Origin: Hypericibacter terrae | GTDB taxonomy: Bacteria; Pseudomonadota; Alphaproteobacteria; Dongiales; Dongiaceae | Direction of reading: 5' to 3' | Assembly: GCF_008728855.1 (NCBI RefSeq) | Contig: NZ_CP042906.1 | Span: 5,299,001-5,363,000 of the forward strand | DNA: 64,000 nt | Shown here: positions 37,789-40,073 of the stretch, piece after piece | Position numbering within the stretch: the stretch's first letter is position 1 | How the letters are laid out: each line of letters begins with the position of its first letter | The notes under the pieces: generated by a model | Told to the model about the DNA's origin: nothing | Seen by the model: the letters and a program-made list of their open reading frames with translations, nothing else | Databases searched by the model: none | Translations under genes and position numbers: made by a program

Positions 37789-38184
37789 TTAGCCTCCGAA
37801 GGCGGTATCGAAGAGGGCGATGGCGGTCGCGAGCGCGAGGCCGATGCAGAGGAAGCGCAGGCCGATCACCAGGATCAGCTTGACCGCTTCATGATGAACA
37901 TAGTCCTCGACCACCACCTGCAGACCCAGCAACGCGTGCCAGAAGCCCGCCCCCAGCACTAGCAGCATCAGGCCGAAAGTGACGGGCGAGCCCAGCCACT
38001 GCGTGGCGCCGGCGCGATCGATGCCGGCATGAGCGACGAGGCCGGCGACCAGCCAGACCAGGAGCGGAATCAGCGCCAACGCGGTGAGGCGCTGAAGCCA
38101 CCAGTGTTGGACGCCTTCCTTGGCGGAACCGAGACCGCGGACGCGGCCGAGTTCGCTGCGCAGATCGGCGCTTGGCTTGACCAT
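37789..38184 (-). CDS. sdhD: Succinate dehydrogenase membrane anchor subunit
   Basis: 131 residues from ATG at 38184, overlapping the sdhC stop (TGATG). Three hydrophobic helices. [18 protein letters not shown] and the [19 protein letters not shown] segment, with candidate haem-b His, match the SdhD family. It anchors SdhAB at the membrane and forms part of the quinone site. Confidence 0.95.
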
Positions 38185-38579
38185 CAGAGCCCCTCCATCT
38201 GCCAGTAGCCGAGGCCCCAGGCGAGCAGCGTCAGCAGCAGCGCCAGGATGACCGCGGTCCAGCCGGTGATCGACATCGTCTTGAGCTCGAAGCCCCAGCC
38301 CATGTCCCAGAAGAGATGGCGGATGCCGTTGGCCAGATGGAAGAACAGCGCATAGGTCCAGCCGAACAGCAGGAGCCGGCCGAGGATGGAACCGATCAGG
38401 CCCTGCGCCTGGGCGAAGGCCTCGGGCCCCACCGCCGCCGCGATGATCCAATAGACCAGCAGCAGCGAGCCGACCGCGAGCGCGATGCCCGTGATGCGAT
38501 GCAGGATGGAGAGGACCGAGCTGATCTGCCAGCGATAGATCTGGAGGTGGGGCGAAAGCGGCCGGTTCTGTGTCGCCAT
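38184..38579 (-). CDS. sdhC: Succinate dehydrogenase cytochrome b556 subunit
   Basis: 131 residues. PLSPHLQIYRWQISSVLSILHRITG is the family N-terminus, with quinone-site Ser and Arg in SVLSILHR. HLANGIRHLFWD contains the haem-ligand histidine. Three transmembrane helices. It is the first gene of sdhCDA and has a canonical promoter at 38618-38646. Confidence 0.96.
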   Translation of the reverse strand: MATQNRPLSPHLQIYRWQISSVLSILHRITGIALAVGSLLLVYWIIAAAVGPEAFAQAQGLIGSILGRLLLFGWTYALFFHLANGIRHLFWDMGWGFELKTMSITGWTAVILALLLTLLAWGLGYWQMEGL

Positions 38580-38680: not shown

Positions 38681-38741
38681 TGTGGATAGGAAGGTGGAAA
38701 GACTGTGCACAGAATGTGCACTTCTCCACCAGCTATACACA
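38681..38741. promoter_or_regulatory. Operator-like and DnaA-box-like sites upstream of sdhC
   Basis: GTGCACAGAATGTGCAC (38705-38721) holds two GTGCAC palindromes 11 bp apart, one helical turn, suggesting a dimeric regulator. Two DnaA-box-like 9-mers flank it: CTATCCACA (minus, 38689-38681) and CTATACACA (plus, 38733-38741), each one mismatch from TTATNCACA. Two boxes alone do not make an origin. Regulation of sdhC or of the downstream RNA is possible. Confidence 0.4.
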
Positions 38742-38749
38742 GGAAAGAT

Positions 38750-39570
38750 GACCCGGCGGGTAAAAGCAGATTGCCCGCCCGGCGCGATTCGCCTCAAGCT
38801 TCCCATTGCACGCGAAAGCGTCGACCTGAGACCGCTCGCAGACATACGCGCAAGGCATGGACCGCCCCCGTCTGACGTGCCTCGGGGGCATATCGGGCGA
38901 GAGCCCCATGCCGATGGTGCCGCCAGGCGCCCGCCCAATCCGCGAGTTCGGTTTTCGGCCGCAGGGGACGGGGGAAGGCCTTCGGGCCTTTCCGTCCGCG
39001 ATCTGGCGCCGGCGACAGGGGATCCGCGGGCCGTCCTTCGGGGCGGCGCAGGGATTGAACCGTCGTCGGGACGGCATGGCGGGCTGCCCTCCAACGAGCA
39101 CTCGCCGACCCGGTCGGTCTCTGATGTCTGAGCCTTCGGGCCGGGCGGATAGGGGCCTGAAAGACGGCGCCGGACTCGTCTCGCGCAAGCGGTCGGTCCG
39201 GATGGCGTCGGAAGAGCGCGCCTTGGCTGTTCGGTCCGGAGCCCATCCGGGACCGACGCAGGTGCCGCCGGGCGGCTGGTCCGAGGGTGAACCACCAGGA
39301 GCCGTCGGGTGCTCGGCGCTGCCGGCCTCGCCCGAGGCCGGCTTTGCTCCGAGGCGAAGGTCGAAATTGCGGTTGCTGGATGCCAGGTCCGGGCTTGCCG
39401 CGTAGATCGACTGGGAAAGGCCCCGCCGCTTTTTCGTGCCGGAGCCCTTGCCGGCTCCGGAGGCGTCAGTCAACGCCCCGTTCTGCGGGGCGTGGCGCGC
39501 GGAGTCCCTAGAGGCTCCGCGCGCCTGACGCCTCGAATCCGTTTAACATGCGCGAGTCGCGCGATTCAAC
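38750..39570 (+). ncRNA. Candidate large structured RNA of unknown class
   Basis: No frame in the 1-kb gap 38647-39652 looks like a protein. Plus-strand structure is dense. Tetraloop hairpins: ACGC-GAAA-GCGT (38810-38821), GGGC-GAGA-GCCC inside GGCAT/ATGCC (38887-38912), GGGAAGGCC-TTCG-GGCCTTTCC (38972-38993, extended by GGAC/GTCC), GCCGTCC-TTCG-GGGCGGC (39030-39047), CGC-GCAA-GCG. A 14-bp helix with one bulged G joins 39192-39205 to 39243-39257. GCCGGCCTCG pairs with CGAGGCCGGC (39321-39342). A perfect three-way junction spans 39460-39534: outer GAGGCGTCAG/CTGACGCCTC, inner ACGCCCCG/CGGGGCGT and GCGCGCGGAG/CTCCGCGCGC. UUCG and GNRA loops occur only when read on plus. It does not match RNase P, tmRNA, SRP or 6S consensus as I recall them. 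No firm promoter or U-run end was found. Confidence 0.4.
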
Positions 39571-39652
39571 AAGATTTGGTGGGAGTTGTAGCGCCGGCCC
39601 CTAGATGTGGCCGGGGCGCCCCTGGTCTTCGGCAGCTTGCCGGAGCGGGACC

Positions 39653-40018
39653 CTAGAGCGGCGGCTCGAACTGCGGCCGCCAGAGCAGGTCCTGCTGGTA
39701 CTTCGGCATCTTCTTCCAGAGCGCGTTGTTCTTGTTGAAATCGTCCAGCAGCCAATTGGTCTGGCCCCCATCGCGCAGCCCATAAAGCTGGTCCCAGGCC
39801 AGCGGCATGGATTGCTTGAAATAGGCCGCGCTCTCGCCCTTGGTCGGCAGGGTGAAGCCACGTTGCAGCTCGATCGCATAATACTGGCCGGCAATCTGAC
39901 GCTGGTAAGCGTCTCGAACCGGCACGTCCATGGCGTTGCAGCCGGCGAGGCCCATCCAGGCGAGGGCGCCGATCAACATCCAGCGGCGCGAGGCCGACAT
40001 CCGAAGCCGTGGGGTCAT
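39653..40018 (-). CDS. Small lipoprotein of unknown function
   Basis: 121 residues from ATG at 40018, with AGGAG 10 nt upstream; an inner ATG at 40000 gives 115. The N-terminal signal ends in the lipobox LAGC. The mature part is Trp/Tyr/Gln-rich with no recognised domain. It lies 55 bp after the MaoC-like gene, so it may be the last gene of that operon. Confidence 0.75.
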   Translation of the reverse strand: MTPRLRMSASRRWMLIGALAWMGLAGCNAMDVPVRDAYQRQIAGQYYAIELQRGFTLPTKGESAAYFKQSMPLAWDQLYGLRDGGQTNWLLDDFNKNNALWKKMPKYQQDLLWRPQFEPPL

Positions 40019-40073
40019 TGCGGAAGAAGCTCCTGAAAATCCCGGGCGCATGCCGGCCGGGCGCCTTTCTTCA

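Follow-up and report, generated by a model that had tools for sequence, protein, structure and literature searches.

We found, on the plus strand of the window (the whole 64,000-nt stretch of Hypericibacter terrae DNA analyzed here), a large structured non-coding RNA gene at 38805..39545, about 740 nt long with both ends predicted, and the interval very probably represents a genuine new RNA class. Comparison among genomes establishes, at the level of sequence, the RNA gene and its strand, its 3′ structure, an array of DnaA boxes, the fixed spacing of that array, and paralogues. The reading as a whole, that of a new hairpin-rich class of large ncRNA with a DnaA-array promoter, a terminator-like junction and a body that would serve as scaffold or sponge, we consider probable.

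Structure, strand and coding potential of the RNA gene

All of the structural elements are on the plus strand. A 5′ hairpin with a GNRA loop, ACGC-GAAA-GCGT (38810..38821), comes right after the promoter, where it is conserved in an alignment of 34 homologues. Two UUCG-capped hairpins with 7-bp stems are at 38974..38991 (loop 38981-38984; its strand is supported by the UUCG bias described below) and 39030..39047 (loop 39037-39040), and a 9-bp hairpin, GCCGGCCTC-GCCC-GAGGCCGGC, is at 39321..39342. The P4 hairpin CGGAGCC/GGCTCCG (39440..39459) covaries in part, and its G-U rich pairs favor the plus strand. The 3′ three-way junction (39460..39534) is built from P1 (39460-39469/39525-39534, 10 bp), P3 (39473-39480/39486-39493, 8 bp) and P2 (39495-39504/39515-39524, 10 bp). 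A preliminary description of this DNA had reported this junction with stems of 10, 8 and 10 bp, three plus-strand GNRA hairpins and two UUCG hairpins, and all are present, with UUCG loops at 38981 and 39037 and no GNRA hairpin on the minus strand.

U-rich tracts come after the junction in homologues, so the junction appears to be a terminator-like 3′ end. The corresponding terminal U-rich tract, part of a predicted intrinsic terminator, is at 39535..39547 (plus); the window's own tract is weak (GTTTAAC), whereas those of homologues are strong (for example TTTTTTT at L056). We infer that the 3′ end of the RNA consists of the junction and this tract, which together would have terminator activity. 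A conserved TTG..-17-TGATAA beside the junction had at first suggested a minus-strand transcript; tetraloop counts and U-tracts identify it as the terminator region read in reverse. Past the U-tract and downstream of the terminator, a motif CAACAAGATTTTGTGG is conserved in many homologues, and appears here as CAACAAGATTTGG at about 39563-39575 of the window. Farther along, at 39653-40021 on the minus strand, is a small lipoprotein-like ORF with no Pfam match and little conservation, even in the sister species.

The 3′ domain shows compensatory changes. With 41 homologues, these occur at 28/32 model pairs (0/500 shuffles), 88.4% of alignment cells pair, and cells changed on both sides number 159, against 50 in shuffled alignments and 23-39 with partners slid, all in an alignment (A6) that was fitted to the model and so leans towards the model's own structure. 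Eight sequences aligned by MAFFT without guidance give compensatory changes at 14/35 pairs (0/500 shuffles). The search for compensatory changes proposed in the preliminary description has thus come out in favor of a structured RNA.

The strand is marked by tetraloops. Counting hairpins with stems of at least 4 bp in 34 homologues of type 1 (the type found in the window), UUCG loops number 61 on the plus strand against 3 on the minus, and GNRA loops 68 against 23; a separate count gives UUCG 60 against 2, and 53 against 0 in the type 2 paralogues described below. The mean is 1.76 UUCG hairpins per homologue RNA vs 0.07 per 670-nt control genomic window. The tetraloop density that had been called hard to get by chance is indeed beyond chance by this measure, with a strand ratio of 60:2. 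Folding is more stable for the plus strand in 34/34 homologues, so that folding energy and tetraloop asymmetry agree on the plus strand originally assigned. An octamer, CCTTCGGG, occurs 35 times against a single occurrence of its complement, and the trinucleotide GGA is enriched on the plus strand.

No protein gene was found to account for the interval. Relative to the sister species (G001), 9/9 indels break frame, each being 1-2 bases, and substitutions have no codon-phase bias in the three main open frames; a protein gene was rejected on these grounds, as the preliminary description had anticipated in seeing no plausible one. The interval thus shows what is expected of a structured ncRNA gene, covarying secondary structure without coding potential. 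A different reading, in which the hairpins are GC-rich palindromes that arose by chance, mobile palindromic repeats, or remnants of a decayed gene, can draw on the G+C-rich genome and on minimum free energies that are strong on both strands (38750-39570: plus -462.7 kcal/mol, z = -4.5; minus -425.1, z = -3.7). Its probability is close to nil in the face of the orthologous position and of conservation, the RNA interval being 80% identical to the sister species while the spacer just beyond is 33% identical; covariation and strand asymmetry also speak against it.

The DnaA-box array, the predicted promoter and the neighborhood

The preliminary description stopped just short of an array of DnaA boxes (38681..38741, plus), and it covered neither the paralogues nor the terminator-like character of the junction. 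Four boxes are co-oriented, TGTGGATAG (38681-38689), GGTGGAAAG (38693-38701), TGTGCACAG (38704-38712) and TGTGCACTT (38715-38723), and a fifth, CTATACACA (38733-38741), is inverted. The spacing is the same in nearly all homologues: those with enough flank have co-oriented TGTGGATAA-like boxes at 11-12 bp and one inverted TTATnCACA, before the RNA. The boxes are degenerate in the window's genome, and perfect TTATCCACA copies are found in relatives (for example at L057). A best array within 8/27 positions was found at 43/53 RNA loci and in 0/640 control windows; L091 is an RNA locus without the full array. A search of 385 genomes with only the array as query found matches in 19, and in 15/19 the match adjoins the RNA, including diverged copies missed by covariance model R2; of these 15, the copies in G044, G225 and G390 were recognized by eye and are less certain, the rest being confirmed by R2 or R3 (models described below).

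Following the array is a predicted plus-strand promoter (38771..38799), with -35 TTGCCC (38771-38776), a 17-nt spacer and a -10-like TCAAGC (38794-38799). The -10 is poor in the window and near consensus in relatives (GATAAT, GATACT). In 27/34 homologues the TTG of the -35 falls at +38/+39, counted from where the inverted box begins; the biggest pile-up among shuffles is 5. The position of the boxes and their phasing upstream of the -35 suggest that DnaA acts as a transcription factor for the RNA. Control of the RNA by DnaA is likely, with both the binding of DnaA and the sign of its effect as predictions from these sequences.

The divergent neighbor, outside the RNA gene, is sdhC (38184..38579, minus; Pfam PF01127, E 4.2e-34). 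The preliminary placement upstream of sdhC holds only geometrically, as the RNA is divergent from that gene. The RNA adjoins sdhC in many genomes, which might suggest a regulator of sdhCDAB or a long, structured leader at its 5′ end, but the RNA is on the wrong strand for an sdhC leader, as judged by tetraloops and folding energy, paralogues occur away from sdh, and in G005 a J-domain-like ORF (L025, contig C96) on the opposite strand lies between the RNA with its array and sdhC. This reading is therefore extremely improbable. From the same G005 arrangement, with the J-domain-like ORF between array and sdhC, it follows that the array belongs to the RNA. The window's genome has a second sdhC-like gene (L024, G000:C1:3632294-3632662), 53% identical.

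Elements of DNA replication control also have DnaA boxes. Like DARS1, DARS2 and datA of E. coli, the array is a conserved cluster of DnaA boxes outside oriC with one box inverted (PMC5742627). It could be a datA/DARS-like or titration site, with the transcript mattering only as transcription through or beside the array; an ordered set of five strictly spaced boxes, well away from oriC, is in keeping with such a site, and in DARS cores, too, one box opposes two others (PMC5742627). DARS and datA sites are characterized by ADP dissociation from DnaA or by hydrolysis of ATP by DnaA. In the DARS core, box I is opposite to and converges on boxes II and III with fixed spacing 14/12 (PMC5742627). E. 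coli DARS1, TTATCCACT-14-TGTGGATAA-12-TGTGTATTA, is convergent, whereas the array here is divergent, differs in spacing with a 31-bp inner spacer, and is phased to the promoter of a conserved RNA; DARS membership was rejected on this geometry. The more general reading as a DNA site is unlikely, given the strong selection on RNA structure seen as covariation, the phasing to the promoter, and the joint retention of RNA and boxes in paralogues.

A second DNA-level reading, the array as chromosomal oriC and the RNA as an origin transcript, would explain the TTATCCACA repeats with their 12-bp period and AT-rich flank, and the locus occupies the origin-side half of the window's genome. It is nonetheless very unlikely, because the array is not at the GC-skew switch where skew is informative: in G314, with strong skew, the origin maps to 0.42-0.80 Mb, whereas the array is at 3.98 Mb, and in G225 the array has no skew switch. 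Skew is weak in the window's genome, and changes at about 5.65 Mb by parS, 325 kb from the RNA. These parS sites (TGTTTCACGTGAAACA; G000:C1:5662639 and 5664679) mark the likely origin region. The existence of paralogous copies also speaks against an origin.

Homologues and paralogues

A plain DNA search gave matches in close relatives only. The junction covariance model R2 found the RNA in 28/385 genomes of the class, and the final plus-strand model R3 in 37/385 sampled class genomes at E<1e-5, distributed over 19 families; by these matches to sequence models, the RNA class is present in 19 or more alphaproteobacterial families. R3 recovers the window's own locus from its genome at E 5.7e-29, with the match at the three-way junction scoring 108 bits (E 2.8e-30). 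A phylum sample searched with R3 for the RNA outside Alphaproteobacteria gave nothing convincing, the best E being 0.005 where matches outside the class above about E 1e-4 were treated as chance. Clear carriers are 5/17 genomes of the window's family and 6/40 of the large family f23. Named carriers are mostly Rhodospirillales-type and Minwuiaceae MAGs, MAG names not being reliable. A weak match in G008 (L237, E 2.7e-5) was set aside, not looking like a member by eye. Homologue length ranges from about 0.15 to 1.3 kb.

A second RNA type was found at unrelated loci in several genomes (L218-L221, L227, L075-L080, L229-L230, L240-L244). Type 2 shares the 3′ motif CCGCGUC..GCACCUGACGCC, and most of its loci have DnaA-like boxes upstream, several with a single box or a few. 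Some type 2 genes contain tandem UUCG-capped hairpin units, 33 nt x10.5 at L218:1628-1974 and 67 nt x7.8 at L219:1855-2376.

Relation to known RNAs and possible role

Rfam 15 has no convincing family for the window on either strand, for 10 type 1 loci or for 12 type 2 loci; the best scores are far below gathering thresholds and the families implausible. The Rfam check that had been recommended for both strands therefore agrees with the proposal of an undescribed large structured RNA, which is also favored by the strong covariation and the exclusion of coding. It is new as a class of RNA that has no known relatives, large structured ncRNAs being in themselves a familiar category. In CsrB and RsmZ sponges, several hairpins carry GGA in their apical loops. 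The RNA described here resembles sponges of that type in its repeated small hairpins within one molecule, and in the plus-strand excess of GGA, but its apical loops are UUCG and GNRA rather than GGA. GOLLD, ROOL and OLE are likewise large, intricately structured ncRNAs of unclear function (PMC12286853); the RNA here does not match their Rfam models, and differs in its repeat-hairpin architecture and DnaA-box promoter.

The nearest analogue in context is CcnA of Caulobacter crescentus, an ncRNA at oriC with DnaA and CtrA sites that is reported to act on the ctrA and gcrA mRNAs (PMC8959179). Both are alphaproteobacterial ncRNAs tied to replication control elements. CcnA is at the origin, whereas skew and parS place the RNA here far from the origin where this could be tested, and it has capped hairpins and a position beside sdhC; the comparison is one of location and architecture. 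CcnA was the only DnaA-linked ncRNA found in a search of open-access literature, and no account of the RNA itself was met there, though one may exist in subscription journals.

We propose that a plus-strand transcript would start at a promoter where DnaA would bind at a set distance from the -35, and would end in the terminator-like three-way junction. Through this promoter geometry RNA output would track DnaA, probably either how much of it there is or whether it is bound to ATP or ADP, and the RNA would therefore report replication-initiation status. The body consists of a variable number of UUCG- and GNRA-capped hairpins with purine-rich internal loops, sometimes as literal tandem repeats. 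The repeated capped hairpins suggest that it may serve an RNA-binding protein as scaffold or sponge; this is the reading that best fits the repeats, and as a role it is speculative. That the RNA is a direct output of DnaA whose capped hairpins bind a protein and thereby pass replication status on to cell physiology, as an RNA branch of bacterial cell-cycle control found in many families and in two paralogue types, is plausible at somewhat short of even confidence.

Bacteria have few large structured RNAs, and those are often of central importance. The conserved DnaA array phased to a promoter is a built-in clue to the control of a widespread RNA and, if the proposal is true, ties the replication initiator to a non-coding RNA in a way that can be tested. 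Genomes differ in their count of UUCG hairpins, from 1 to about 15, and homologues spanning this range of repeated hairpins offer material for biochemistry.
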